DNA from: Candidatus Zixiibacteriota bacterium | Lineage (GTDB): Bacteria > Zixibacteria > MSB-5A5 > GN15 > PGXB01 | Direction of reading: 5' to 3' | Assembly (NCBI GenBank): GCA_016933695.1 | Contig: JAFGAL010000001.1 | Span: 248,001-312,000, forward strand | Length of the DNA: 64,000 bases | Shown: positions 39,932 to 56,253 of the stretch, in pieces | Layout of the letters: the number at the start of each line of letters is the position of its first letter | Numbering within the stretch: position 1 is the first letter of the stretch | Notes under the pieces: model-generated | Told to the model about the DNA's origin: nothing | Seen by the model: the letters and a program-made list of their open reading frames with translations, nothing else | The model's database searches: none | Made by a program: the position numbers and the translations under genes

Positions 39932-42151
39932 TTAATGACTCATCAACACCATCAAGCTGTCAAGCGTGGCGACTTCCGGTGCGATTTCAGCGACTCTCTG
40001 ATCGACTCGCACCAGCCCGGTGCTGTCATTTTGCATCTTATAGACCTGTCCCAGATAGGCCAGCTGGTGAAGATACATCGAGGACATCTGGCGGGCAGTG
40101 GGGTCATAGAATTTTCCGGCCAATCCGCGCAGATCGAAACGATCCAGAATATTGTCGGCAAGAATGTGATGGTCGTTGCGGCTGGAATCATCGGGACACA
40201 GTCTCCACGCCAGACCATCGAGACGTGCCAGCGACGAAAGCCCGAGCGGAAGATGTTCGCCGAATCCCGCGGAAAAATAAATCGGGCGGCGCCACTGATT
40301 TTCGCGGATAATATCAAGAACCAACCGGTGTCCGATAAAAAGGATGTTGCCGAAGGTCGGTTCGACCACGATGCGAACCGAGTCGGACTGCGGGGTAACC
40401 CCGGCGACGGCGACAGTGTCGGTTTCCCACGGGATATGGTGCATAGTTCCCACGGAATCTGCGGTCACACTCCAGGGCATGTCCGGATGGTAGTGCATGA
40501 TACTCCGCAAAAACCAGGGCGTGTTCAGCAAATGGATGTTTAACACTGTCACATCGGTGCGAACCCGCTCGACGGCTTGAAAATACAACGGCAAAAACGT
40601 ATCGCTGTCACCGGCGGTGAACAGGATGGCATCGGACTCGCAGGTTTCCAGAAGATTGCGCCCGAAGGCCGAGGCGGTATAATTGCCGCTCATGTCGAAA
40701 TCATTTCTATTCGCCCAAAAGGCATTGACGGGCAAAATCGCCAGCAAAATCAACGCGGCCATCCCCTCACCGGCTTTGCGTCCAAGAATACGTGATCCCG
40801 CTTTCAGGAGCACATACGCCCCGATTCCGATCCAGAGTGCGATCAGCATGTACGATACCATGTAATGGCGGTCCATCTCGCGGAAGAATCCTTCGGGGAC
40901 ATTAAGATAGAATATCGCGACGAGCGATGCGAACAAAAAGGCCACGATGACCATGACAGCCGAGCGTCCCTGCTTGAAAACATGATACACAAAACCGATC
41001 GCGCCGATAATCAACGGCAGGCCGTACATCCGACTCCAGTTCACACCGGCTCCGCCATCTCCCATTCCGGCAAAATTCCACCCGACATAGCGCAGATACA
41101 TCTCATTGATCTGATAACTCCAGAACGGGCCTTTACGCTCAAACAGGTCGGATCCGAATGCCGCAATGCCGTACGTTTTCAATGCAAAATAATCCCACAA
41201 TCTCGAAAACGTTTCCACGTCGCCGTAATTGAACTCCGGATGCAACTGCGCGCGGAACATCAGGCCCAGCTGTAACGATAATCCCAGCGCAAAAAGGCCG
41301 ATACATCCCAGCCAGAGACGGACATCACGGAATGCCGAGGGACGGCGGATCAGCACCAGCACCACGAAAAACGGCGCCAGCAGAAGGTTACTGCGATGCA
41401 CACTGAGATCAAGCCCCAACAGAAACGCCGTCAGCAGGAGATAATTGCCTGCTCCGGCCTGATCGGCTCTTTCCCACCAGCGCACGGCCAGATACATCAG
41501 CATGGCCCCGACCAGCAGGGAAAACGTGTAGGGATTGGCAAAAGTCGCCTTGGCCCAGACACTGGCGCTAAACGCCAGAGTCAGCGCCCCAAGCGCACTC
41601 GCGATCAGTATCGATCGATCGGGTTGCCGTCCGGTGATACTACTCAGCAGACGCACCCCGGTCAAATAGGTTACCGTAATCGCACCCGCCGTCAAAACGG
41701 CGATCAGCAGATTAAAACCGTGCACCGGAGTCGTGATCACGGTCAAGAATGCAAAGCATCGTCCCACAAGTTGCAGGAAAAACGATCCGGGTGGCGGCGC
41801 CACCCAAAGCTGGTAACTCGCGGCAATATACTGACCGCTGTCCCACCATCCCGGTCCCGGCCAGGCGGTCAGGCAATACCCCACACAGGAGATGACAAAC
41901 ACCGTCACGCCACCGATTGCAACCGGCGATATGAATGCGCCGCGTTTCGATTGCGGCCATTGCGATAAACCGCGCGGGCGCAAACCCAGCGGTGTCAATA
42001 CACCGTAGCCCAAAACCAGCAGGACCGGTGCGAAGATCAATGTCAGGTTGCCGTCAACGGGCGGAACCCGCAGAAAGCCCATGCCGATTAAAATGCACAA
42101 CAGACCGACATAAAACGAACGCGACGGTGATTCAAGATTTGCCATTGTCAT
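39932..42151 (-). CDS. DUF2723 family membrane protein (GT117-like)
   Basis: 739 residues with about eleven membrane segments in the first 500 and a soluble C-terminal region. The loop PGWWDSGQYIAASYQLWVAP is the signature of DUF2723, whose members resemble lipid-linked glycosyltransferases/O-mannosyltransferases and place their catalytic loop in the periplasm; the Asp of that loop is likely catalytic. The soluble end contains FTAGDSDTFLPLYFQ, also typical. It sits 51 bases after the MgtC/DUF4010 gene and just before dpaL, in one transcriptional direction. Confidence 0.85.
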   Translation of the reverse strand: MTMANLESPSRSFYVGLLCILIGMGFLRVPPVDGNLTLIFAPVLLVLGYGVLTPLGLRPRGLSQWPQSKRGAFISPVAIGGVTVFVISCVGYCLTAWPGPGWWDSGQYIAASYQLWVAPPPGSFFLQLVGRCFAFLTVITTPVHGFNLLIAVLTAGAITVTYLTGVRLLSSITGRQPDRSILIASALGALTLAFSASVWAKATFANPYTFSLLVGAMLMYLAVRWWERADQAGAGNYLLLTAFLLGLDLSVHRSNLLLAPFFVVLVLIRRPSAFRDVRLWLGCIGLFALGLSLQLGLMFRAQLHPEFNYGDVETFSRLWDYFALKTYGIAAFGSDLFERKGPFWSYQINEMYLRYVGWNFAGMGDGGAGVNWSRMYGLPLIIGAIGFVYHVFKQGRSAVMVIVAFLFASLVAIFYLNVPEGFFREMDRHYMVSYMLIALWIGIGAYVLLKAGSRILGRKAGEGMAALILLAILPVNAFWANRNDFDMSGNYTASAFGRNLLETCESDAILFTAGDSDTFLPLYFQAVERVRTDVTVLNIHLLNTPWFLRSIMHYHPDMPWSVTADSVGTMHHIPWETDTVAVAGVTPQSDSVRIVVEPTFGNILFIGHRLVLDIIRENQWRRPIYFSAGFGEHLPLGLSSLARLDGLAWRLCPDDSSRNDHHILADNILDRFDLRGLAGKFYDPTARQMSSMYLHQLAYLGQVYKMQNDSTGLVRVDQRVAEIAPEVATLDSLMVLMSH

Positions 42152-42202
42152 AAGTGTACTGACTTCTCACCACGATGTCAATAGCAGACATGCCGGGCGA
42201 TA

Positions 42203-43447
42203 CTACCGGGAAAGTAAAATAAACGGCACATGCAGCAGTGCCCAGATTCCGTATCGAATCAGCGACTGCCCACGCGCCGCTTTGGCCAAAAATCCGAAAT
42301 ACAGCCCCTTCATGACCGTGTTGCCCATCATCGACACCAGCACCGCCGCCAATATCATATTGTGGAATTCGGGCGTCTGATTGACCAGCGACAGGATAAA
42401 CGGATCGATATCGGTCACGCCGGTGATCGCGGCCAGAACAATCAGACCCGTGTCGCCATAGAGCCGCAGGACAAATACGGTCACCACCGACAACATCACG
42501 AACAGAACGGCGAAAACGAGTGCCGGTTTTATCTCAAAGGGGTTGCGAAGCGGTTCCAGTTGCGCCTTCTCCGATCCGGGAACGGACGACCTGATCCCAA
42601 TCGACAACAACACCCCGATTAACGCCATCATGACCAGCTTCCACCAGAAAAAGTGGGCAAACTCGGGACGGATCAGCCAGATTAACACCAAAATGCGCAA
42701 ATACATAACACTGCTGGCCAGAATCGATGCCTGCAGGGCGCAGACACTTCGGTTGGGATTACGTTGTGCGGTGCGTCCTGCCGAGATACTCACCGCCGTA
42801 CTGGAGACAATCCCGCCAAGAATACCCGACAGCCACAGCCCCACTTTCCCGCCGAATTTCTTGGTCAGAAAATACCCGACAAAACCGATAGCCGATACCA
42901 GCACCACGATTTGCCAAATATGGCGGGGATTCAGATTGAATTCGGTGTACGGCTTATCGGGCAGAACCGGAAGAATAATCAGTGTCACGATCAGAAACTT
43001 CAATACCGCCAGAAATTCGTTTTCATCCAGACGTTTGACATACTGCTCCATCTTGGTCTTTTCGGAAAGTAGAAACGTGCTGATGATCCCGATCGAAAGC
43101 GGCACCCAAATCGACGCCAGCAGACTCAGCGCCCCGGTAACAAAAGTCACCAACGCCGCCACCTCACTGGTCCACCCCACGTGCCCCTCTTTCAACTTGG
43201 CCAGATACCCCACCAACGCCAGAGCGCTGACCGACAGCAGTCCCATCGGCATCGCCCATTGAATCCCGACCTGAAACAACCAGGCGCACCCGAAACCGAA
43301 AATACCAATCAGCGAATAGGTGCGCACTCCGGCGAACACCCGCCCCTTGGTGCGAGCACCGGAGCTTTCCCGCTCCAGGCCCATTAAAAACGCCAGGCCC
43401 AGCGCGATCACAAAACGCAATTCGAATGGTACCGAGAATTCCAGCAT
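42203..43447 (-). CDS. MgtC/SapB-like membrane protein with DUF4010
   Basis: 414 residues. An MgtC N-terminal domain (ALGLAFLMGLERE, then GVRTYSLIG) is followed by a DUF4010 domain with further membrane segments: about eleven in all. MgtC-like proteins support magnesium limitation or membrane potential control in other bacteria, but the DUF4010 class has no established function. It is the first gene of a long minus-strand run and begins near a REP-like hairpin (43479-43498). Confidence 0.88.
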   Translation of the reverse strand: MLEFSVPFELRFVIALGLAFLMGLERESSGARTKGRVFAGVRTYSLIGIFGFGCAWLFQVGIQWAMPMGLLSVSALALVGYLAKLKEGHVGWTSEVAALVTFVTGALSLLASIWVPLSIGIISTFLLSEKTKMEQYVKRLDENEFLAVLKFLIVTLIILPVLPDKPYTEFNLNPRHIWQIVVLVSAIGFVGYFLTKKFGGKVGLWLSGILGGIVSSTAVSISAGRTAQRNPNRSVCALQASILASSVMYLRILVLIWLIRPEFAHFFWWKLVMMALIGVLLSIGIRSSVPGSEKAQLEPLRNPFEIKPALVFAVLFVMLSVVTVFVLRLYGDTGLIVLAAITGVTDIDPFILSLVNQTPEFHNMILAAVLVSMMGNTVMKGLYFGFLAKAARGQSLIRYGIWALLHVPFILLSR

Positions 43448-43478
43448 ATCTTATGTCCTCGTCGATCTGTCGGGTCGT

Positions 43479-43498
43479 CCCCGGACTGAAATCCGGGG
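43479..43498. repeat. REP-like hairpin
   Basis: CCCCGGA (43479-43485), loop ctgaaa, TCCGGGG (43492-43498): a perfect 7-bp stem just upstream of the MgtC-like gene. Similar in style to the hairpins at 8836, 9613 and 50728 but not identical. Confidence 0.5.
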
Positions 43499-43608
43499 CG
43501 TTATACTTAATATCGGTTTACTCACGAACATTTTACATATTACTCCCCTGCCGGGTTTTACGATCCGGTTGAGTGTGAAATATACCGGGTTTTCATATCT
43601 CGTGGGGG

Positions 43609-43639
43609 GAAAAAAAACGGCCCGCCGGGGTGGGCCGTT
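43609..43639 (-). terminator. Terminator of the class V aminotransferase gene
   Basis: On the minus strand AACGGCCC (43639-43632) pairs with GGGCCGTT (43623-43616), 8 bp perfect, followed by a run of Ts (plus-strand A-run from 43610). It lies 23 bases past the stop. Confidence 0.88.
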
Positions 43640-43661
43640 TGAATCGACAATAATGTACAGA

Positions 43662-44876
43662 CTAATTTACACTTGCCTGTTTGCGGCTTTTCATATCCCG
43701 GGCGCGTCTGGCGATATTGGTCATCGCCTCGATTGCGGCGTCGATATGCGCCTCGGTGTTGAACGGTCCGATCGCAAAGCGCACTCCGCCGTGAATACCG
43801 GTCGTGCCGATCTGTTGGTGCACCAGCGGTGCGCAATGCAGTCCGGTGCGGGTGGCGATATTGAAATCGACGTCGAGCATAATCCCCACATCGCCCGCCT
43901 CGAGACCGTCAACATTGACCGTCATCGTCGCTAAATGGTTTTCCAGGCTATCACAGCAGTAGACGATCACGCCGTCGATGGCCTTAAATCCATCCACCAG
44001 CCTGTTCGCCAGTTTCATTTCCTGCGCATGGATCGCCTCCACACCACCGGATTTGGCAATCCATTCCTGTCCGGCCCAGAGCGACGCCACCCCGACCATA
44101 TTGGGCGTGCCATATTCCATACGGAACGGATATTCCGGCAAATGATAAGGATATGCCGAACGCACCCCGGTTCCGCCGCTTCTGGTCTGACGGATATCGA
44201 CATGAGAACGAACACACAGCCCGCCAATCCCGGTGCACCCCATGAGCGACTTGTGTCCGGTAAACGCCAGCACGTCGACATGCATTTCGTGCATGTTAAT
44301 CGGCACCATACCGGCCGTCTGGGAAACGTCGATCCCGAACAGCACGCCTTTCTCCTTGCAGATGCGGCCGATGTCCGCTACCGGTTGCACTGTCCCCAGC
44401 ACGTTGGACCCGTGATTGACCATGACCAGCCGGGTGTTCTTTTTTATCGCCCTGCCGATGTCGTCGGGATCGACAAAACCGTTGTCATCGAACGGCACAT
44501 AGGTGGCCTCGACTCCGCCGTCGCGCACCAGATGATTGATCGGGCGGATAACCGAGTTGTGCTCGACATTGGTGGTGATGACATGATCGCCGTTGCCAAG
44601 CAAACCCTGAATAATCAGATTCAGGGCGTCGGTGGCATTGTAGGTATAACACAGCCGTTCCGGGACGGCTTCGTCGCCGCCGAAAAACCGGGTCAGGCGA
44701 AGGCGCAAATCCTCGATGATGTTGCCGGCCTCAATGGCCTTGTCGAAACCGCTTCGTCCGGGATTGACCCCGCAGGAGCGATAGAATTCCACCATGAACG
44801 AATAAACGGAATCCGGTTTCGGCCACGACGTGGCGGCATTGTCAAGATATATCAATTCTTCCACTTTGGGCTCCAC
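43662..44876 (-). CDS. Class V aminotransferase, cysteine desulfurase family
   Basis: 404 residues, PLP fold-type I. IYLDNAATSWPKP starts the family, EHNSVIRPI follows, and the PLP lysine sits in FTGHKSLMGCTGIGGL. This matches the cysteine-desulfurase-like group that includes SufS/CsdA relatives found without iron-sulfur scaffold genes. No suf or isc genes are nearby, so sulfur transfer is likely but the acceptor unknown. Translation appears to begin at GTG 44876. It has its own promoter (44910-44937) and terminator. Confidence 0.88.
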   Translation of the reverse strand: MEPKVEELIYLDNAATSWPKPDSVYSFMVEFYRSCGVNPGRSGFDKAIEAGNIIEDLRLRLTRFFGGDEAVPERLCYTYNATDALNLIIQGLLGNGDHVITTNVEHNSVIRPINHLVRDGGVEATYVPFDDNGFVDPDDIGRAIKKNTRLVMVNHGSNVLGTVQPVADIGRICKEKGVLFGIDVSQTAGMVPINMHEMHVDVLAFTGHKSLMGCTGIGGLCVRSHVDIRQTRSGGTGVRSAYPYHLPEYPFRMEYGTPNMVGVASLWAGQEWIAKSGGVEAIHAQEMKLANRLVDGFKAIDGVIVYCCDSLENHLATMTVNVDGLEAGDVGIMLDVDFNIATRTGLHCAPLVHQQIGTTGIHGGVRFAIGPFNTEAHIDAAIEAMTNIARRARDMKSRKQASVN

Positions 44877-44909
44877 AGTAAAACTACCCAGTTGTTTTTT
44901 TCCGGATGC

Positions 44910-44937
44910 AAGATAAGGATTTATGGCAAAATGTCAA
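44910..44937 (-). promoter_or_regulatory. Sigma-70-type promoter for the class V aminotransferase
   Basis: On the minus strand TTGACA (44937-44932), a 16-base spacer and TATCTT (44915-44910), giving a short leader of about 25 bases before GTG 44876. Confidence 0.6.
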
Positions 44938-44984
44938 CCTGCGCCGATGTTTCCATGATGGTATTTTGACGGGTGTTCGGGCAT

Positions 44985-45021
44985 AAAAAAGCGGCGTCAA
45001 GGCCACTCAATCTCAACGCCG
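44985..45021 (-). terminator. Terminator of the sigma/CHAT/subtilase operon
   Basis: On the minus strand CGGCGT (45021-45016) pairs with ACGCCG (44997-44992) and is followed by a C and a run of six Ts (plus-strand A-run just before 44991). It is 24 bases past the subtilase stop. Confidence 0.7.
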
Positions 45022-45045
45022 TTTTGTGTTTTTTATGGGGTTATC

Positions 45046-46692
45046 TTAACGGCAACGACACCCCTGCCCGCCATAATACAAATAATCCATAAGGATTTGC
45101 ACATCGCGATAATCGACTGACCCGGAATGATTGACATCCCCGGTTCTTTCGATCGGTTGCGGCGGTGGGCCGTTGTGATAGACATAGTCGATCAAATACA
45201 AACCGTCACTCAAATCCACTTCACCGGAATTGTCGGTGTCGCCGCAATGCAGAGACAACATTGCCCGAAATGCGTCCACCAGTCCGTATCCGTAGTGGAA
45301 ATCCGGCGGACGGATCGTTATCGACAGCAATCTTGTCCGGGCAGTGGTGCGGATTGTCTCTTCGACGGCAAACGGCGGCATATGCGGCTGGTCGGCACGA
45401 ATCAGGGCGCAGACCCCGGCCGCCATCGGGGCGGAAAACGAAGTTCCGCTCCAGTATCCCCATTCGTATTCGCCGACCAGTGCGCTGTACACCAGTACAC
45501 CCGGCGCGCACACGTCGATATGCGGGCCGTAATTCGAGAAATCCGCGAGTAATTCGAGCGAGTCCAGCGCGGCGACGGAAATCACGCCGGGATATCCCGA
45601 CGGGAAACTAACCTGCGCGGAGGCATCGTTGCCGGGCGCAGCCACCAGCGTCACCCCGGAATCCCGCGCGGCGTCGATTGCCATCCGAATAACGGCATTG
45701 TCTTCGTACGTCCCGAAACTCATGTTGATCACGTCGGCCTTGACCGAATCGCTGATGGCCAGGTATATGGCGTCGGCGATTAAAAACGAACCGGCGAATC
45801 CCTCGGTGTCGAATACGCGAATGGGAAGAATGTTACAGTCCGGTGCGATCCGTTTGATTATCCCCGCCACGAACGTCCCGTGTCCGTACAACACCCCCGG
45901 TTCTTCTTCGGGAATCGTGTCATTATCGAGCAAATCGTACCCGCTACCGGCCAAAGCGTTCTCGAACAGCGGGTGTGATATGGCGATCCCATTATCGATT
46001 ACCACCACGACCACCCCTTCACCGGTCGAAAACAAATTGGCGCTGTCGGCATTGATCGTATACCCGCCGCCGTCGCCGTAATACGGACCCGGGCTTTCAC
46101 CCAGCATATGCACCGGACGCTCCTCATCGGGAAACGACTGGCTGACCTGAAAGACCTCCGGAAGACCGACTTCATAATTGGGCTGAGCAAAGGAAACCCC
46201 GGGATCGTCCTGCAGAGTCGAAAGGACTGACTCTATCGACACGGTATCCGGGAATTCCGACAGGAAGGTTCGCTCCGCGGCGATACTGTCGACAACCATC
46301 CCGTGGAAATTGCGGATCATCGGTCCGACATCGCCCCCGGGAACCGGCCGGACCACAATCTGTCTTTGCATGTGCCGTCTCGGTTGGCATGAAATGGTGC
46401 GGTTGTGCAAACATCCGTCCGCCGCCGTACATTCCACGTCGCACCGAAAATCCTTCCTGCCGTTAACGAATACCGTATCCCCGGCCTGAAACTCACCATA
46501 CGTATCGAGCACGAAATACCGACTGTTGCCCGCATCGGTTTTAAACAACAAACAGCCGTCGACTTCTTCCAACACCCCACATCCGTGGAAAAAACCGTGT
46601 CGAGCCGATGCCTGCGATTGCAACAGACAAACGGTCAACAGTAGAAAACCGCTCAGCCGCAGGCCGAAATGAGTTGTATATGACGCTTTCAT
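45046..46692 (-). CDS. Secreted subtilisin-like (S8) protease with C-terminal dockerin
   Basis: 548 residues: signal peptide (1-30), a small beta-rich domain (about 35-100) and an inhibitor-like propeptide (about 115-180). The S8 domain follows (about 215-475) with catalytic Asp233 (VIDNG), His271 (YGHGTFVAG) and Ser418 (SGTSFSAPM), and oxyanion Asn355. Last is a type I dockerin (about 482-545) with two calcium-loop repeats, DTDNSGEVDLSDG and DVNHSGSVDYRD. All catalytic residues are present. GGGAG precedes ATG 46692, which is 15 bases after the CHAT gene, so it belongs to that operon. It should act outside the cytoplasm, unlike CHAT. No cohesin gene is in the window. Confidence 0.92.
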   Translation of the reverse strand: MKASYTTHFGLRLSGFLLLTVCLLQSQASARHGFFHGCGVLEEVDGCLLFKTDAGNSRYFVLDTYGEFQAGDTVFVNGRKDFRCDVECTAADGCLHNRTISCQPRRHMQRQIVVRPVPGGDVGPMIRNFHGMVVDSIAAERTFLSEFPDTVSIESVLSTLQDDPGVSFAQPNYEVGLPEVFQVSQSFPDEERPVHMLGESPGPYYGDGGGYTINADSANLFSTGEGVVVVVIDNGIAISHPLFENALAGSGYDLLDNDTIPEEEPGVLYGHGTFVAGIIKRIAPDCNILPIRVFDTEGFAGSFLIADAIYLAISDSVKADVINMSFGTYEDNAVIRMAIDAARDSGVTLVAAPGNDASAQVSFPSGYPGVISVAALDSLELLADFSNYGPHIDVCAPGVLVYSALVGEYEWGYWSGTSFSAPMAAGVCALIRADQPHMPPFAVEETIRTTARTRLLSITIRPPDFHYGYGLVDAFRAMLSLHCGDTDNSGEVDLSDGLYLIDYVYHNGPPPQPIERTGDVNHSGSVDYRDVQILMDYLYYGGQGCRCR

Positions 46693-46707
46693 GATTATTG
46701 CTCCCGT

Positions 46708-49467
46708 CTAAATGCCCAATAATATAAAAGAACTCCAGAACATGGGATTTTCGGTCATACCGACAATGGTCTCCATGGCGCCGGTATAGGCGCGATATAT
46801 ATTTTTCGTTCGGGCCAGTGCCCGGTAAAACTCCACCATAAACAGCATACTGAGCCGGTCGGACACCGGCCACAGCGATGCCAGTACAAATCTGCTTCCG
46901 GCCTGATAAAACGCTTTGGCAAGACTGAATGAATTACCGTAATATAGCCCCGGAGCGGCAGTTTGGCAACCGGAAAGCGTTACCAGGCTTGGCCTTATTC
47001 CCGTACCGAAAAGATCAAACGGAAACAGCGGGCCGTCACCCATGAATATTTTCGAGAACAGCGGGTTTTCCGATGATCGTGACGCGTGCGCCGCCACGTG
47101 GACAAATAACCCCGCTCGCCCCAATTCCCGAAGCAGATGTTTACGGTCGGCGGCAGTATCGAGATACAGCCTGGCCTTGCCGAAAATCCGGCTGATGTGT
47201 TCGGCTTCGATCCGAATCGATGGCAAAGTGTCCGAACTCACCGCGAATATCGCACCGGATCGCCGTGTCTTGACACCATCGTTCTGTCGATTGGACACAT
47301 CCCGGGGATTGGCGATCATGCGAATTTCGTACGATTCCCGGACATACCGCCCGGCAGTGTCGCGCAGGGCCAGGAACGGAATCTGGTAAAACGGTCCGTC
47401 GGCGATCACGATAATGTTCCTCCCCGCCAGTTTCGTCACCAGCGGCGCGAACACGGCGAGATACAATTGCTCCAGAATGGCATTGGCCAGCGGCGTAGTG
47501 CGTTCACTCTCGCGGATGCCGAATACCGATTTCTCGCAGACGAAACCCAGCTTTCTCAGCAGGGTTTGCAATTCGATCTCGGTCAATCCCAGATCGATAA
47601 ACGCGGTGTCCGAAGCGGTAACGCAAAACACCCCCATTTTGCCGTTGACCATCAGATAATTCAGCAGGGTTTCATCCGGTCGGAGTTGTTCGACGATATC
47701 GATTTCGGTTTCTTCGCCTTTCACCGGCCCATCGGTCGGTGCATACCCGTACGCCCTGATTTTACGTTCCACCGACCACAGCTTTTGTTCCGTTTTACGC
47801 CAGTCCGTAACCGCCGTCACTCCGCGGAATTCTCCCCCCGGCGCCATCTGCAGTTTCATTAACCTGGCCCGCAGGGCATCGCGTTGTTTCTGCAATTCCG
47901 GGGGAATCCGCGACGGCATGGACATTGACATTCCGCTTTGCTGGTTCAGCAACTGCAGCGCCTTGAGATTGGTCAGAAATGAATCCCGCGGACGCTTCAA
48001 CCGCAACAGGCATTCCACGGTCATGCGATAGATGTCGTACTTGTCCGCGACGAAGAAAAAGCGAATTTCATCAGGATACATCGATTCCAACACCTTTTCC
48101 ACGGTTGTCACCGCCGCCTTGAACCAGTTCAGGGCAAGCGACGGTTTGTTGCCGAGATAGTAGCATTTGCCGATCAGGTAATACAGCGTGTATTCCTGAT
48201 AACTCAACAGGGTGCGCCGTTTCAGCGAAGCGGCGCGACGAAGGGCGCGCCCGATATCCCCGGCGCTCAGCAATACTTCCATGCGCACCACGTCGGCATC
48301 GGTGGCCCGGCGTTCATCGCCGCTCCTGCGGAAGGCGGCGCGTGCTCGATCAACATAACGAAGTGCGAGTGAGTAATTCTCCTGCGCCAGGGCCAGCCGG
48401 GCACGGGCGACATGCACCATCCCCAGCCAGAGACTGTTGTGTTCCTTGCGGAACAACTCCGAAGCGCGACTGAGACTGTCCGCGGCCCCGGTATAATCCG
48501 ACAACTGCGCTCGTGCCTGCGACAGGAAATAATACGCCTTCCCCTCTTCATAGCGCATTCCCAACGAGCGCAGTCCCGGAATGATGCCTTCCGCCTGCAT
48601 GATGGTTGTGCCGTATTGATTTACCTGCAGGTTGATTTCCGCCAGATCGAGCTGGGTGATGGCGGCGGTTTTGCGATCCCCCAGCGAAACGAACCGATCG
48701 TGCACCTCTTCGAACATCCGCAGGGCTTCGGCGTACCGGTTCTCCAGATAATTGACATACGCCAGCGAATACCGGGCCTGGCATTCGGCAATGTGCATGC
48801 CCAGTTTGGCGTACAACTCACCCGATTCGTGATACAACTCGCGCGCCCGGGTCAACTGGTTCAGGTTGGCATAGATATTGGCGCGATTGTACTCGATAAT
48901 GGCGAGCCCAACGCCCCCCTCTTTCGCGAAAATCCGGCGGGCCCGCTCGTAAAAACGCAGGGCCATGCGATTGTTATCCATCCGATGATAGATATTGCCG
49001 ATGTTGTTCATTACCCGCGCGGCTTCGCCGGATAGTTTGTGCCGCAGGAAAAATCGCAGGGACCTGTGCCCCTCCTCCAGCGCCTGGCGATAATGCCCCA
49101 GATACATATGCACGTCCATCAGGCCGCGCCTGACCCGGGCGCTCCACAACCAGTCGCAGTGCTGTTCGTTGATCACCAGCGCCGACTGGTATTTCCGCAG
49201 GGCCTTTTTATGGTCGCCGATCCAGTGACAGTACCGCGCCTCGATAGCACACCGTCGCGCCTGAAACTTCTCGGGGAGATATCCGAACAGCCGCGCCACA
49301 CACCGGACATAGTCACTGGCGACCGTGAGATCGGTCCGTATCAGGGTATGCAGGCCGTCGTTGACGCCGGTAATAAACCGCTCGATGTCACCATCGAACG
49401 TCTTCACCAGGTACTGCGCCAACGCATCCTGATCGGCAAGATGCTTTATATCATCATACGGTATCAT
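46708..49467 (-). CDS. TPR-CHAT caspase-like protease
   Basis: 919 residues. Roughly the first 470 are tetratricopeptide repeats (for example MNNIGNIYHRMDNNRMALRF, then further 'A..Y' helical pairs). A linker follows, and the C-terminal 310 residues are a CHAT (caspase HetF-associated) domain. The catalytic pair is intact: His794 in HVAAHASR and Cys834 in LSGCQTA. CHAT proteases cleave after specific residues once TPR arms receive a signal, as in type III-E CRISPR Csx29 and separase-like enzymes. The gene overlaps the anti-sigma-like gene by 4 bases and follows a sigma factor gene. The substrate is not known; the preceding protein is the first candidate. Confidence 0.92.
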   Translation of the reverse strand: MIPYDDIKHLADQDALAQYLVKTFDGDIERFITGVNDGLHTLIRTDLTVASDYVRCVARLFGYLPEKFQARRCAIEARYCHWIGDHKKALRKYQSALVINEQHCDWLWSARVRRGLMDVHMYLGHYRQALEEGHRSLRFFLRHKLSGEAARVMNNIGNIYHRMDNNRMALRFYERARRIFAKEGGVGLAIIEYNRANIYANLNQLTRARELYHESGELYAKLGMHIAECQARYSLAYVNYLENRYAEALRMFEEVHDRFVSLGDRKTAAITQLDLAEINLQVNQYGTTIMQAEGIIPGLRSLGMRYEEGKAYYFLSQARAQLSDYTGAADSLSRASELFRKEHNSLWLGMVHVARARLALAQENYSLALRYVDRARAAFRRSGDERRATDADVVRMEVLLSAGDIGRALRRAASLKRRTLLSYQEYTLYYLIGKCYYLGNKPSLALNWFKAAVTTVEKVLESMYPDEIRFFFVADKYDIYRMTVECLLRLKRPRDSFLTNLKALQLLNQQSGMSMSMPSRIPPELQKQRDALRARLMKLQMAPGGEFRGVTAVTDWRKTEQKLWSVERKIRAYGYAPTDGPVKGEETEIDIVEQLRPDETLLNYLMVNGKMGVFCVTASDTAFIDLGLTEIELQTLLRKLGFVCEKSVFGIRESERTTPLANAILEQLYLAVFAPLVTKLAGRNIIVIADGPFYQIPFLALRDTAGRYVRESYEIRMIANPRDVSNRQNDGVKTRRSGAIFAVSSDTLPSIRIEAEHISRIFGKARLYLDTAADRKHLLRELGRAGLFVHVAAHASRSSENPLFSKIFMGDGPLFPFDLFGTGIRPSLVTLSGCQTAAPGLYYGNSFSLAKAFYQAGSRFVLASLWPVSDRLSMLFMVEFYRALARTKNIYRAYTGAMETIVGMTENPMFWSSFILLGI

Positions 49468-50054
49468 AAGTCGATGTCAACGACGGCGACAGCCCGGTTG
49501 TCGGCCAGCACCGTCAGGGTATAGGACGCGACGGGCAGACGCGGCACATAAAACAGGCAGAATTCATCGGTTGCCGCCGCCATCGTTCGGGCTTCGGATT
49601 TCAGTTCAATCCGGCAAGGTCGAGTTATCTCCGGGCCCGCAACCTGACCCACCAGCTCATAAGCGTTCAGCGCCACCGGATACAGCGACAACTCCAGTTC
49701 CATGTCGTCCGTCTTGTATTTCAATCGTCGGGTGTCCACCACCGCCGGACGAACTCCCTCGGGAATCGGCAGGTTTTTCGAGTCGTAAACCGCCAGACCC
49801 CGGGGCGGATCGGTTTGTGATCCCATTCGTCGCCAGTCCCGAAACATCCGCGCCGAAAGCTCGCGCGCGGCCGACCGCAATTCGTACAGCGCTGGTCTTT
49901 TCTCCGAGGTCGTGCTTTCCCGCAGGAAATCGCGAAGGCGGCGCAGAGCGGGATCGGTTTTCAACAGTGCTTCGAGACGACGAGATTCGTCCGGTGAGCA
50001 TTCCCCCTCAAGATGGCACATCAGCAGTTCCACCCGGTCGGGTTCGCGGTTCAT
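49464..50054 (-). CDS. Small protein with anti-sigma-like N-terminus, candidate CHAT substrate
   Basis: 196 residues. The N-terminus (ELLMCHLEGECSPDESRRLE, then ALLKTDPALRRLRDFL) resembles the helical start of anti-sigma factors, but the zinc pattern HxxxCxxC is absent. The middle is basic and polar. The last 80 residues look like an Ig-like beta domain (ELSLYPVALNAYELVG, then FYVPRLPVASYTLTVL). No membrane segment. ATG 50054 follows AAAGG; a TTG start at 50108 overlapping the sigma gene is possible. It lies between sigma and CHAT genes and overlaps the latter. Whether it binds the sigma factor is inference. Confidence 0.7.
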   Translation of the reverse strand: MNREPDRVELLMCHLEGECSPDESRRLEALLKTDPALRRLRDFLRESTTSEKRPALYELRSAARELSARMFRDWRRMGSQTDPPRGLAVYDSKNLPIPEGVRPAVVDTRRLKYKTDDMELELSLYPVALNAYELVGQVAGPEITRPCRIELKSEARTMAAATDEFCLFYVPRLPVASYTLTVLADNRAVAVVDIDL

Positions 50055-50097
50055 GTTACCTTTCCCTTCGTTATGCGACTCGCTGTCGCTTTCTTCA

Positions 50098-50670
50098 CTA
50101 TCGTTCAAACCGTTTTTGTTTCAAAATACGATACAGCTTTTTCAGACATCGCAATCGCGTCGGACCGACCGACGATACCGGCATATGCAAACGTGCGGCC
50201 ACCTGTTCGTAATCCGGCTTGCCCTCCTCGAAAAACAGCGCCCGCAACAGCCGGTAATCCCGTTCCGGAAGTTGCACCATGGCGCGGTTGATAATTTCGT
50301 TCAACCGGGTCAGTTCATATAATTTTTCGGGCGATTCCGGCGCGATATCATACAGCGCCCTTTTAATCGCCTGCCGTGACCGTTCCGCCAACTGCACCCG
50401 GCGGCGAAGCTCGCCGACTTCGCGACGGGTCATGGTTGCGACATAACTCATCAGCCGGTCCGCCGATTTGACATGGTCCAAATTCCGCAACAGCAGGTAG
50501 GACACCTGCCCGAACACGTCATAGCTTTCCTCACGCGACAGACGCATGGTTGCGCAGATGGAAAAGATCAACGGCGTCACCACATCGACCAGCCGCTCCC
50601 AGGCGAGCGGGTCACCATCGAGGCAGGCTCGGATTAATTCGGTATGGGTCTTCTCCCCGGCGCGACTCAT
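50098..50670 (-). CDS. ECF-type RNA polymerase sigma factor
   Basis: 190 residues from ATG 50670: region 2 (about 10-85, GDPLAWERLVDVV, then ESYDVFGQVSYLLLRNL) and region 4 (about 130-185, LPERDYRLLRALFFEEG, YEQVAARLHMP, and VGPTRLRCLKKLYRIL). Regions 1 and 3 are absent, as in ECF sigma factors. A start at 50712 is possible but lacks a ribosome-binding site. It is the promoter-proximal gene of the operon with anti-sigma-like, CHAT and subtilase genes and probably drives its own or a linked regulon. Confidence 0.9.
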   Translation of the reverse strand: MSRAGEKTHTELIRACLDGDPLAWERLVDVVTPLIFSICATMRLSREESYDVFGQVSYLLLRNLDHVKSADRLMSYVATMTRREVGELRRRVQLAERSRQAIKRALYDIAPESPEKLYELTRLNEIINRAMVQLPERDYRLLRALFFEEGKPDYEQVAARLHMPVSSVGPTRLRCLKKLYRILKQKRFER

Positions 50671-50727
50671 GAATCCAATGTGTCGAAACGCGACGCAAAG
50701 CGCAATACGCAAGTTGTCTCAACGCAT

Positions 50728-50756
50728 CCCCCACCCCGAAGGGTCAAGCCCGGGGG
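50728..50756. repeat. GC-rich REP-like hairpin
   Basis: CCCCC (728-732 of this kilobase) and GGGGG (752-756) enclose ACCC-cgaa-GGGT (50733-50744). The stem is imperfect, with asymmetric bases on the right. Confidence 0.35.
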
Positions 50757-50817
50757 CGATGACATCCTCTGTCGGAACCCGTATCCCGACTCAGCGGCGG
50801 CCAAACGCGAGCACGGT

Positions 50818-50843
50818 TCTCTATTGTAGAGAGGGATATTCCC
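50818..50843. promoter_or_regulatory. Adjacent palindromes, possible operator
   Basis: TCTCTA-ttg-TAGAGA (50818-50832) is directly followed by GGGA-tat-TCCC (50833-50843). Two short dyads side by side between divergent genes suggest a regulator-binding site. Confidence 0.4.
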
Positions 50844-51047
50844 GACGAAAAAATACCGCAAATAACGCGGCCGACGGAAACAACCGGCATACGTGCCGGG
50901 CGCCAGGGCTTTTCGCCTGGCCGCATAGCGCAAGGATAGAACAAAAACACGGATCGGGCTTTATCTCCGGGCGCTTTCGGCCGAAAATATGATAATAAGA
51001 GTGTTTATGCCCAGTCGTGTTAAAATCGCCATACCGGGAGAATGACT

Positions 51048-52313
51048 ATGCGTCTCGATGAAATCCTGATGGAATGCGGATCCGCCGCACCGGCCCAGAT
51101 ACAAGAAGCGCTGGAATACCAGCAAACCTACGGGGGACGGCTCGAGACTCATTTGTTGCGATTCGGCTACATCGGGGAAAACAACCTGGTCAACGCCCTG
51201 TCACGTCAATTCCAGTGTGAAGGCATCAGCCTGGCCGGACGCGACATTCCGCCGGACGTCCTCAACCTTATCCCCGCGCCGATCGCGCGTGCCTATCTGG
51301 TTTTGCCATTTGCGTTCGACCGCGACTCCAATACCCTGCATGTCGCCTGCGAAAACCCCCGCGATGACCACCTTCGCGATATACTGCACCAAATTGTGAC
51401 AGAGCGGGAACTGCGCCTGCACGTGGCGGTCGGAGTTATTCTCAAATGCGCCATTGTCAACCACTACCGCACGATGGCGATCTCGCCTGAAAAGGAGCCC
51501 TTCTGCCAAATCGAAACCGCTGTCCCGGAACAGAACCGGCCAAAACCGGAAATGACCTGCCGGGTGTTGGCAGTATCGATCGACGGCCCGTCGCTTGATC
51601 TGTTTCAACATGAAACCGCCGAATACGGATATCAATTGACCGCCGCCGACAACCTTGACCGGTTCGACGATCTCTACCGGCAGTCGCGGCCCGATTTGCT
51701 GGTAATCATGCACGGCGGCACCAACACCGATATCAACGCTTTTATCGACAATCTTATCCTGCGCGACGTGTACATCGATCAGATTCCGACCTTTCTGCTG
51801 GTCAAGGCCGATGTCGTTCCCAATCTCAATGCCCTGTTAAAAGACGGCATCGAGGACGTGCTTCCGCTCGATGATTGTTTCTGGCCGTTGATTATCAAGA
51901 TGAACCGGGTGCGCGACCGTATCGAGGCGGTCTCCCGGCAGCGCCGCACCGTCATCCGGGAACTCGGCACCCACGGCACACTGGAAGACATGAACGTCAT
52001 CGACCTGCTTCAGATGATGGGGCCCAGCCGGAAAACCGCCCGCATCAGTATCACCGGCCATGGCCGGCATTTGACCATTTTCCTGAATTGCGGCAGTATT
52101 ATCTATGCCGAATGCGACGGAAAAACCGGCGCCGAGGCGGTATATCAGGGGCTGTCATGGAATTACGGGATCTGGAGTGTCGATCCGATTACCGAGGATG
52201 ACCTGCCAGAACCGAATAACGACCTTCCCAACGAATCGATTCTGCTCGAGGGATGTCGTCTGCTTGACGAGCAGAGCCGACAAGAGGATTCACCAACCAA
52301 TCTGCGCTGGTAA
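51048..52313 (+). CDS. MshEN c-di-GMP-binding domain, degenerate receiver, DUF4388 protein
   Basis: 421 residues. Residues 2-54 contain two 24-residue motifs of form RLx..L...G......L...L..Q separated by exactly five residues (QTYGG), the published layout of MshEN c-di-GMP-binding motifs; the usual Gly3 is Asp in the first and Glu in the second. About 165-290 resembles a receiver, but the phospho-acceptor Asp is replaced (PDLLVIMHGGT). About 300-400 is DUF4388 (LEDMNVIDLLQMMG). ATG 51048 is preferred over 51042 for spacing to GGGAG. It precedes an HD-GYP gene by 114 bases. A signalling adaptor rather than an ATPase. Confidence 0.85.
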   Translation: MRLDEILMECGSAAPAQIQEALEYQQTYGGRLETHLLRFGYIGENNLVNALSRQFQCEGISLAGRDIPPDVLNLIPAPIARAYLVLPFAFDRDSNTLHVACENPRDDHLRDILHQIVTERELRLHVAVGVILKCAIVNHYRTMAISPEKEPFCQIETAVPEQNRPKPEMTCRVLAVSIDGPSLDLFQHETAEYGYQLTAADNLDRFDDLYRQSRPDLLVIMHGGTNTDINAFIDNLILRDVYIDQIPTFLLVKADVVPNLNALLKDGIEDVLPLDDCFWPLIIKMNRVRDRIEAVSRQRRTVIRELGTHGTLEDMNVIDLLQMMGPSRKTARISITGHGRHLTIFLNCGSIIYAECDGKTGAEAVYQGLSWNYGIWSVDPITEDDLPEPNNDLPNESILLEGCRLLDEQSRQEDSPTNLRW

Positions 52314-52427
52314 ACCGGACATCTTCACTCCGCTAACCGCTGTAAATACAAATGCTTTTATATCAATAAATCCGCTCTATTGACGATACAAAGAATATCG
52401 CTTAACGTCTTTGAATTGGCTTGAATC

Positions 52428-53411
52428 ATGGCAGTAATATACGGCGAGACCGTCAAAACCGATGAATACCTGATTATCTATCTGGACTCGCTTCGCATCA
52501 ACAGCGTCCTGAATTTCGACCTGTATATAAAAAAGGCCGGGGAATATATCCTGTACCGTTCGGCCCGTCTGCCGTTCGAGGAAAAAAACCGTCAGAACCT
52601 GCTGGACAATAACATCGATCGCCTGTATATCCCTCTTGACAACCGCCGGAACTATCAGGAGTATATCGAAGGCAATATCCGCGAGATTATCGAAGACCCG
52701 CAGATCAAGGAATCGACCAAGGCTGGCATCGTTTACGACAGCGCCAAACTGCTGGTCAAGGACGTTCTCAACAATCCCACCCTGGGCGAAAATATCAAAC
52801 GCAGTCAGGCCATGGTGGAGGCAACCGTCACACTCATTCTCCGGGGGCAGAGTGCGTTCCACAATCTCTTGCGGGTGATGTCGTTCGATTATTATACGTA
52901 TACTCATTCGGTCAACGTCTGCACCTTCTCCCTGGCACTGGCGCGCTATATCGGCATCGAAAACGTCCGGGAGCTAAACGATCTGGGAACCGGCGCTTTG
53001 CTTCACGACGTCGGCAAGACCAAAATCTCGGAGACGATTCTCAACAAACGCGGCCCGCTGACGAAGTCGGAAATGCAACTGGTGAAAAAGCATCCCCGCT
53101 GGGGTTGTGACATTATCAAGGAAACCGATATCATTAACCCGGAATCGTACTTCCCCGTCATCGAGCACCACGAACGCGAAAACGGATCCGGCTATCCCAA
53201 CGGTATCGGCGCCGATAAAACCCACGCCTACAGCAAAATCGTGGCAATCGCCGATGTCTTCGATGCCATGACCACCAAGCGCGTGTATCGCGATGCAATG
53301 GCGGCCTTCCCGGCGTTGAAAACCATGTTTGACGACAAAGGCGCGTTCGACAAACACCTGCTGGAACATTTCACCCGTCTGATGGGTCCCAGCAAACTGT
53401 CCGACCTGTAA
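52428..53411 (+). CDS. HD-GYP cyclic di-GMP phosphodiesterase
   Basis: 327 residues: a helical/beta N-terminal region (about 1-130), then an HD-GYP domain with HSVNVC, LLHDVGKTKI (metal-binding HD), HPRWG and HHERENGSGYPNG carrying the GYP signature. It hydrolyses c-di-GMP to pGpG or GMP in the cytoplasm. It lies downstream of a probable c-di-GMP-binding protein in the same direction, suggesting a shared circuit. Translation starts at ATG 52428 without a strong ribosome-binding site. Confidence 0.93.
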   Translation: MAVIYGETVKTDEYLIIYLDSLRINSVLNFDLYIKKAGEYILYRSARLPFEEKNRQNLLDNNIDRLYIPLDNRRNYQEYIEGNIREIIEDPQIKESTKAGIVYDSAKLLVKDVLNNPTLGENIKRSQAMVEATVTLILRGQSAFHNLLRVMSFDYYTYTHSVNVCTFSLALARYIGIENVRELNDLGTGALLHDVGKTKISETILNKRGPLTKSEMQLVKKHPRWGCDIIKETDIINPESYFPVIEHHERENGSGYPNGIGADKTHAYSKIVAIADVFDAMTTKRVYRDAMAAFPALKTMFDDKGAFDKHLLEHFTRLMGPSKLSDL

Positions 53412-53469
53412 TACGCTTTCTCGTATTTAGAATTCAAAACGAAGGAATTAAGATTGGCAGGTCCTGGTG

Positions 53470-56253
53470 TTATTTTGACAGTGGATTTGGCACTGTTGGC
53501 TGAACAATACGATCCAATTCACTTCGTACCGCTTGTCCCAGTGCCTGACGCGTGTACGGCTTTTTCACATAGGTGCCCGCACCGAGTTTCTGCATGGCAT
53601 TCACCCGGTCGGTGGCGGAAAAACCGCTGACGATGATCGCCTTCTGGCCGGGGTGTTTCTTGATAATCTCCCGATATGTATCCAGTCCGTCGAATCCGTC
53701 GCCCATAATCATATCAAGCACCACCAGATCGACCGTGTGGGATTGCAGGAAAGTTATGGCATCCTGCCCGTTCACCGCCGTGTGCACCCGGTATCCCAGG
53801 CTTTCCAGAATTTCGGCCGCGATGTCGCGTTGCTCCTCAAGATCATCGACCACCAGCAGGGTTTCCGAGCCGGACACGTCATTCGCTTCGGTATTCTCCC
53901 TGACGACCGTTTCATGACTGACGGGAAAATACAATACGAATTCGGTTCCCTGATGGGGCACCGAGAACACGTCATAAAAACCCCGGTGGTCTTTCACGAT
54001 GCTGTATACCACCGCCAGCCCCAGACCACTGCCGCTGTTGCCCATTTTCTTGCGAGAATAGTACGGCTCGAAGATTTTCTCCAACTCATGCGGTTCGATA
54101 CCGACTCCGGTATCGCGGGCTTTGAAAACAACATACTCCCCGCTTTCAATCTTGTCATGTCCGCCGTACAACCGGTCGATATGCCGTTGTGAGGTCTCAA
54201 TGGTGATCGCCCCACCGTCCGGCATGGCGTCGAATGCATTTACCACCAGATTCATGATCACTTTCGACAGGTGCGCGGCCGACCCGTGGATTCTGCCGAT
54301 GGTGTCATCCAGATTGATTACCGGTTTGACATCGGGATGCGTGTCGAGCAGTTTTTGGAAATTGGCCGAATCCAGATACGATCGCACCACATCGTTGATA
54401 TCGGTCGCCACCATATCATAGCGCCCGCGACGGGCCAGGGTCAGCAAATCCTGAATCACGTCGGCGGCCGACCGGGCGGCGTTTTCGATGCGCTGCACCT
54501 GGCGGCGCACCGGGCTGTTTTCAGGAAGTTTCGCCAGGATCAATTCGGGATACCCGACCAGTGGTCCCAGCATGTTGTTGAGATCATGCGCGACACCGCC
54601 GGCAAGCATTCCCAGCGACTCCATCCGCTCGGCGCGCTCCAGTTTTTCCTGCAGTTTTTTGCGGTGTTCCTCGGCACGCCGCAATTCGGTGATATCCAGA
54701 ATGGAGCACAGCGCACCGATGTACGTTTTATTCTCATCGAAGCGAGGCGTAATCGACACATACACACTGCGCGGATTGCCGCAGGCGGTGCGGATGTCGA
54801 TTTCATACTGCGAGCTCCCCCCGGTCCGCCGCCGCTCGATATCCTGCATCCATATTTTTCTCTGGTCGCCGTCGACAAAATCAAGCAGGCTTTTACCGAC
54901 GATTTCGGAGGGGTGCGCGCTTTCGAATATTTTCGCGAAAGCCGGATTGGCGAATTCGATACTCTCGTCGGCATTGAGCAGGCCGATCCCCTCCATTACC
55001 GAATCGAACAATTCTTGATACCGCCGTTTTGACTCCAACAATGCATCCTGCGCCTGCTTGCGTTCAGTGATGTTCAGCGTGACCTCCACCACCCCGACAA
55101 GTTCTCCCTGCTCGTTGCGGACCGGATATCCACGTATCCACCAGACCCGGCCGTCACACGACGTCATCTCCGTCTCCTGCGGCTGACCGGTTTCCAGCGC
55201 CAGCAATACCGGGCAGTCCGGACACGGCGTGGTCCGGTGATTCCAGATTTCATGACAGCGTCGGCCGATCAGTTCATCGAGCGTGGCATTCACCGATTCC
55301 GCCCCGGCACGATTGGCCCAGATGACGCGCAAATCCCGATCCTGAAAACTGACCAGTTCGGACACGCTTTCCAGAATGGTGGCTTTTTCCTGCTCCGACG
55401 CCCGCAGGGCCTGTTCGGCTTTCTTGCGATCGGTGATATCCAGAAACAGCGCGGCCATTTTACCCGGCATGGTCGGAAACGCCACAACATGGTAGGCTCC
55501 GCTGATCAGGTTGTCCTCATAAACAACCTGTTCGGCCTGCCAGATTTTTCCTTCCCGCACCACCCGCCGGTATTGCTCGGGCAGTTCGGAATTGGCCAGG
55601 GGCGGAAACGCCTCCTCGATCGTCCTGCCGATAAACGCCTGATGGGATATTCCCAGCATTTTGTCGGCGCAATCATTGCATCCCTCGAATATCAACCGGC
55701 CGTTCTCCGCCAGGCGGTACTGATGCAATCCCATCGGCAAAACCTTGATCAACTGCTCGAACTGGTTTTCGCTTTCGCGGAGTTTGTCGGTTATCCGAAC
55801 CCGTTCGGTAACATCCTCCACTGACATCACCATCCCATCCACCCGCCCGGCGTTATCGGTCAGTGGCGCGGCGTTGATCGACAACAATACGCGCTTGCCG
55901 TCGGGACGCATAATGGCATGGCGGACGTCATACACCGGTTTTCCGGTGTTTTTTGCGACAGAAAACGGGAGTCTTTCGGACGGAAAGAGATTCCCGTCGA
56001 AATCGGTGATCACCCACTGGAAATCATCATATTGCCGACCGGCAATTTCGCTCCGGCTCAATCCGAGAATCTCTTCAGCGCGCTCATTGGCGGTAAGAAT
56101 CACTCCATCGCGATCCAGCACCACGATCCCGACCGGACTGGTTTCCATAATGCGATTGAAAACCGTCTGATCGCGCAGTGTATCGGATCGACGATTGCAG
56201 GGATCACGATGATATGCGGTTGACCTGTCTTTGGTGCTGTTTTGCTTGGTCAT
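53470..56253 (-). CDS. Hybrid PAS sensor kinase with C-terminal receiver
   Basis: 927 residues, soluble: about four PAS domains (roughly 25-530), HisKA with GGVAHDLNNMLGPL, HATPase with GSGLGLAVVY, and a receiver in the last 130 residues (phospho-acceptor in DLVVLDMIMGDG, Lys in YVKKPYT). One PAS (FQDRDLRVIWANRAG, then CHEIWNHRTTPCPDCPV) carries a Cys cluster, Cys-x2-Cys, typical of redox- or metal-related PAS domains of this kind, though also common without cofactors. A phosphotransfer partner is not in the window. It converges with the HD-GYP gene. Confidence 0.92.
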   Translation of the reverse strand: MTKQNSTKDRSTAYHRDPCNRRSDTLRDQTVFNRIMETSPVGIVVLDRDGVILTANERAEEILGLSRSEIAGRQYDDFQWVITDFDGNLFPSERLPFSVAKNTGKPVYDVRHAIMRPDGKRVLLSINAAPLTDNAGRVDGMVMSVEDVTERVRITDKLRESENQFEQLIKVLPMGLHQYRLAENGRLIFEGCNDCADKMLGISHQAFIGRTIEEAFPPLANSELPEQYRRVVREGKIWQAEQVVYEDNLISGAYHVVAFPTMPGKMAALFLDITDRKKAEQALRASEQEKATILESVSELVSFQDRDLRVIWANRAGAESVNATLDELIGRRCHEIWNHRTTPCPDCPVLLALETGQPQETEMTSCDGRVWWIRGYPVRNEQGELVGVVEVTLNITERKQAQDALLESKRRYQELFDSVMEGIGLLNADESIEFANPAFAKIFESAHPSEIVGKSLLDFVDGDQRKIWMQDIERRRTGGSSQYEIDIRTACGNPRSVYVSITPRFDENKTYIGALCSILDITELRRAEEHRKKLQEKLERAERMESLGMLAGGVAHDLNNMLGPLVGYPELILAKLPENSPVRRQVQRIENAARSAADVIQDLLTLARRGRYDMVATDINDVVRSYLDSANFQKLLDTHPDVKPVINLDDTIGRIHGSAAHLSKVIMNLVVNAFDAMPDGGAITIETSQRHIDRLYGGHDKIESGEYVVFKARDTGVGIEPHELEKIFEPYYSRKKMGNSGSGLGLAVVYSIVKDHRGFYDVFSVPHQGTEFVLYFPVSHETVVRENTEANDVSGSETLLVVDDLEEQRDIAAEILESLGYRVHTAVNGQDAITFLQSHTVDLVVLDMIMGDGFDGLDTYREIIKKHPGQKAIIVSGFSATDRVNAMQKLGAGTYVKKPYTRQALGQAVRSELDRIVQPTVPNPLSK

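Follow-up and report, generated by a model that had tools for sequence, protein, structure and literature searches.

A four-gene operon with a sigma factor gene and two protease genes

The window analysed here is a 64,000-nucleotide stretch of a Candidatus Zixiibacteriota genome (contig JAFGAL010000001.1, positions 248,001 to 312,000). It contains a four-gene minus-strand operon that encodes a predicted ECF sigma factor, a 196-aa protein, a TPR-CHAT protease, and a secreted subtilase (Table 1). The spacing from sigma factor to subtilase is 43, −4, and 15 bases, and the ORF coordinates agree with the sequence-only reading of this DNA that had proposed the operon. That reading also assigned it a single terminator: a hairpin is present at 45008-44989, but hits of this class are not clearly above those in shuffled sequences (11 observed versus 8.0, sd 2.5), so we consider the terminator weakly supported. 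Rfam had no match in positions 42000-54000, and PADLOC returned generic CHAT, TPR, and subtilase matches and named no defence system. The plus-strand neighbours at 51042-53411, which encode an MshEN/DUF4388 protein and an HD-domain protein, are ordinary.

Table 1. Features of the operon, in window coordinates.
Feature	Coordinates	Strand	Basis or remark
Predicted ECF sigma factor, 190 aa, regions 2 and 4	50098..50670	-	TIGR02937, family profile; conserved across operons
Predicted soluble class I anti-sigma factor, 196 aa	49464..50054	-	Homology, fold model
Anti-sigma domain (predicted), residues 1-77	49824..50054	-	Helices 7-15, 21-33, 35-49, 55-77; without zinc ligands
Linker, residues 78-108	49731..49823	-	Holds D91, S92, R102; candidate recognition or cleavage segment
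C-terminal beta-sandwich, residues 109-195, CarboxypepD_reg-like	49470..49730	-	Family profile, model
TPR-CHAT protease, 919 aa, no signal peptide	46708..49467	-	Start overlaps anti-sigma gene by 4 bases
TPR superhelix, about residues 1-460	48088..49467	-	Pfam, model
CHAT domain, residues 664-918	46714..47478	-	His794 at 47086-47088, Cys834 at 46966-46968
Secreted subtilase, 548 aa	45046..46692	-	N-terminal hydrophobic signal, S8, dockerin
Weak terminator-like hairpin with T run, 3' of subtilase	44989..45008	-	Class not above chance

The first gene product matches TIGR02937 (sigma70-ECF, NCBIfam) at 4.2e-16, above the cut-off, and its family profile aligns over positions 5-177 to the whole two-domain ECF structures SigW, SigH, and RpoE. 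Because the Pfam sigma region models stayed below their cut-off for this protein, the call rests on NCBIfam and the family profile; both bear out the earlier claim that sigma regions 2 and 4 are present and point to an ECF sigma factor with the two regions in one short protein. As a test for autoregulation, 24 + 20 regions upstream of the sigma genes were examined by pair counting and by a Gibbs search; neither gave a shared promoter motif convincing over shuffles, and some sites there resemble ordinary sigma-70 promoters.

The TPR-CHAT protein has Pfam matches to CHAT (PF12770, 2e-44) and to TPRs. Its His794 and Cys834, noted in the initial reading, are in place, and the His/Cys dyad is invariant in every related CHAT that has this region, in both clades described below. 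As judged from these features, it is a CHAT protease. The CHAT part is poorly modelled; the nearest solved folds of the model are separase, which is closer, and Csx29, both of which are site-specific proteases. Hydropathy gave no signal peptide, and we read the protein as cytosolic.

The subtilase matches Peptidase_S8 (1.1e-44) and dockerin models in Pfam, and comprises a hydrophobic N-terminal signal, a prodomain-like region (107-172), the S8 domain (224-470), and the dockerin (484-538). The catalytic triad that had been recognised in the sequence (D233/H271/S418) is in place, and the Asp/His/Ser triad is intact in all 28 operonic subtilases tested. Since it carries a secretion signal, the subtilase is likely a separate arm and not a protease that meets a soluble anti-sigma.

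Conservation across the phylum

The initial reading had proposed, as a check on the operon, that its gene order should be conserved beyond close relatives, and this was borne out. About 45 loci from across the phylum have the four-gene set, and they form two deeply diverged clades: clade I, near the window, in which CHAT identity is mostly 39-53%, and the far clade II, in which it is about 25%. The related records from the contig scan are all Candidatus Zixiibacteriota, and some contigs in the locus survey end within the operon. The gene order is nearly always sigma factor, small protein, CHAT, and S8, and nearly every complete locus has the subtilase; one locus (L077) has an inverted CHAT gene that is still adjacent and retains all four genes. 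About 30 of the 133 genomes of the phylum, from several families, carry the clade I small protein, and the window's own genome has a second complete four-gene operon (G000:C6, L006 2362-7746), with 48% CHAT identity and the same 4-base overlap. The recurrence of the gene set in about 45 loci, together with this second copy, indicates that the operon is no local accident and reflects more than chance.

In 22 of 26 clade I loci the anti-sigma and CHAT frames share 4 bases; every clade II locus also has some overlap, with start codons that are uncertain there. Distance correlations among the four proteins form a chain in clade I and are absent in clade II; they are confounded by gene order. Profile searches of six CHAT loci on plasmid records of other phyla found no linked sigma factor, small protein, or subtilase, and the small protein itself had no significant match in the plasmid records.

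Some loci depart from the common form. The whole four-gene operon is duplicated in tandem in L065 (2935-14222), and part of clade II (L052, L056, L058, L059, and L061) has subtilase ORFs of ~1150-1450 aa versus ~480 aa. CHAT genes are split by frameshifts or stops in L040, L042/L082, L044, and the first copy in L065, where the sigma and anti-sigma frames are open; such splits in relatives may be decay, assembly error, or phase variation.

The small protein as a predicted anti-sigma factor

Class I anti-sigma factors are defined by four helices, three of them bundled and the fourth following a linker; the Hx3Cx2C motif marks the zinc anti-sigma domains, but it is found in about half of class I anti-sigmas and is not obligatory, and zinc-less members are counted in the class (PMC7406223). 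The AlphaFold2 model of the window's small protein agrees with this definition: it has four helices up to residue 77, predicted with moderate confidence, then a linker of low confidence, and from residue 109 a beta-sandwich that is confidently modelled. The alignments behind the structure models are shallow (6 and 4 rows), and a Foldseek search with the small-protein model returned generic Ig-like folds, none of them significant.

The window protein has a mere trace of zf-HC2 in Pfam. Matches to this model occur in 5 of 20 clade I small proteins (best 5e-7), and matches to CarboxypepD_reg are weak (3 of 20, best 0.003). The zinc motif is kept in 13 of 15 clade II small proteins and is absent from the window protein and from clade I (0 of 20); the small proteins of the two clades are homologous (hhalign, E=3e-11). 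On the strength of its homology to the zinc-motif relatives and its predicted fold, we read the 196-aa protein as an anti-sigma, in line with the anti-sigma-like character first suggested for it. By homology, it is a soluble class I anti-sigma factor, which would bind and inhibit the sigma factor.

Across 43 non-redundant sequences of the small-protein family, D91, S92, and R102 are the only invariant residues, and all three lie in the linker. This pattern would fit a candidate recognition or cleavage segment; a structural role is also possible.

Compartments of CHAT proteases and anti-sigmas

We compared the location of CHAT proteins with that of the protein encoded between sigma factor and CHAT, scoring a CHAT as exported if a simple hydropathy rule gave a hydrophobic N-terminal segment. 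Cytosolic CHATs go with a soluble intervening protein (about 45 of 45 loci); where the CHAT is exported and a sigma gene lies just upstream, the intervening protein is transmembrane (11 of 11), and zf-HC2 was found in all nine transmembrane intervening proteins of the main group. Another 17 exported CHATs in the sample have no sigma gene recognised nearby. Such matching is expected if the anti-sigma is the CHAT substrate and is acted on at the part that lies in the compartment of the CHAT protein. On the CHAT tree, however, export switches a single time; with so few independent events the matching is suggestive only, and a Fisher value for it is no true probability.

Two transmembrane anti-sigmas beside exported CHATs (L090 3181-4029 and L113 1948-2763) seemingly carry tandem anti-sigma domains, of which one has the zinc motif and the other lacks it.

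A possible protease-gated sigma switch and its alternatives

Our preferred reading, which we hold at even odds, is that the operon is a CRISPR-independent, protease-gated sigma switch, a reading in which we infer sigma binding, cleavage, trigger, and output. Speaking for it are the joint retention of the four genes, the invariant CHAT dyad, the anti-sigma homology, the invariant linker residues, the frame overlap, the compartment matching, and the fold similarity to separase and Csx29; speaking against it are the single export change on the CHAT tree, the exported CHATs that have no recognised sigma gene nearby, the failure to find a promoter motif, the poor CHAT model, and a correlation chain that clade II does not repeat. 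The N-terminal four-helix domain of the small protein would keep the ECF sigma factor inactive, and the cytosolic TPR-CHAT protein, translationally coupled to the anti-sigma, would serve as a sensor-protease. Binding of a signal molecule or partner to the TPR superhelix would activate the CHAT domain, which may cut the anti-sigma at its conserved linker/beta-sandwich part; the cut inhibitor would fall away, and the sigma factor would direct transcription. As a product of the same operon, the secreted subtilase would be a separate or downstream arm outside the cytoplasm.

The proteases could instead be outputs, with the sigma factor released when the anti-sigma itself changes, for example through ligand binding by the beta-sandwich or redox or metal sensing by the zinc form. 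The operon would then yield the secreted subtilase and a CHAT protease whose targets are other proteins of the cell. Conformational sensing is common among soluble zinc anti-sigmas (PMC8999054, PMC7406223), and this explanation is compatible with the gene order. Against it stand the overlapping anti-sigma and CHAT frames, the absence of zinc ligands throughout the clade I sample while the CHAT dyad is invariant, and the compartment matching, which outputs alone would not lead one to expect; we judge it unlikely, though a serious contender. The frame overlap and compartment matching argue for contact and not for cutting, and the TPR superhelix offers a surface for binding. The TPR-CHAT protein might thus control the anti-sigma purely through contact, in the manner of a scaffold or partner switch, with the protease cutting itself or another target. 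A catalytic dyad that is invariant in two clades asks for a proteolytic role, however, and we find regulation by binding only improbable.

The subtilase, which has an intact triad and is present in nearly all complete loci, might itself be the protease that removes the anti-sigma; this is one possible reading of the proteolytic control proposed for ECF54, as summarised in PMC8999054. Its signal-like N-terminus, prodomain, and dockerin, set against an anti-sigma with no membrane segment, should place the two proteins in different compartments, and we give this reading very little credence. For the protease-gated switch, a proposed substrate, a candidate segment, and a single-residue control are all named, which makes it a directly testable question.

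Relation to known systems

In type III-E CRISPR systems, the Csx29-Csx30-CASP-sigma module is established, and such logic thus exists (PMC10028731). Like that module, the window operon encodes together a TPR-CHAT protease, a putative sigma inhibitor, and an ECF-type sigma factor, and the inhibitor has a sigma-binding N-terminal part (predicted here) and a separate C-terminal part. The two differ in that Csx30 has 565 aa, whereas the small protein has 196 aa and is a predicted anti-sigma of the zf-HC2/ASD type; the similarity of the CHAT protein to Csx29 is confined to the fold, with separase closer; and a secreted subtilase is fixed in the window operon. Csx30 is present in the PDB (8eey), yet profile searches of that database with the small protein did not match it; lacking this homology, the operon would fall outside the CASP systems. 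The operon contains no cas genes, and no Cas1 scored above the cut-off in the genome, which is 82% complete. By analogy, a stand-alone version of the Csx29-Csx30-sigma logic is a fair working hypothesis for the operon.

An association of caspase-type peptidase and ECF sigma genes is also seen in the bacterial caspase/EACC2-ECF sigma-DUF1822 neighbourhoods, for which a transcriptional arm has been proposed; these have other domain sets, no identified anti-sigma, and no subtilase (PMC8195603).

By gene context alone, the operon is also similar to that of ECF54 from Actinobacteria, which, as summarised in PMC8999054 (citing Casas-Pastor 2021), includes carboxypeptidase-type, subtilase, and CHAT proteins, and for which proteolytic control is proposed and no anti-sigma is described. 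All three components are present in the window operon, with CarboxypepD_reg being a weak match, but here the CarboxypepD_reg-like protein carries a predicted anti-sigma domain. The window operon thus looks like the same kind of context as ECF54, as that summary presents it, with the anti-sigma made visible. If so, the ECF54 context, read in that literature as having no anti-sigma, may hide one. Given the known ECF54 association, as summarised there, the gene set is less novel and the anti-sigma assignment counts for more.

More broadly, and with somewhat less than even confidence, we suggest that CHAT proteases may be general, CRISPR-independent first-cut proteases for anti-sigmas, placed where the anti-sigma C-terminal domain lies, and that the type III-E CASP switch may be a specialised use of an older sigma/anti-sigma/CHAT logic. 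If the protease-gated switch holds for the operon, caspase-fold proteases would gate bacterial transcription without any CRISPR part, and a compartment-specific protease-to-transcription switch would be on offer.

In the DegS-RseA-RpoE and RsiW-SigW systems, a protease frees an ECF sigma factor by destroying a membrane class I anti-sigma. These systems use periplasmic DegS and an intramembrane protease, whereas the window operon pairs a predicted cytosolic, soluble anti-sigma with a caspase-fold protease. Elsewhere in its own genome, two sets (L008 2292-6846 and L007 3437-8001) comprise a sigma factor, a transmembrane zf-HC2 anti-sigma, and an exported TPR-CHAT protein, and these exported-CHAT/transmembrane anti-sigma pairs would be nearer to the DegS-RseA and RsiW-SigW type.
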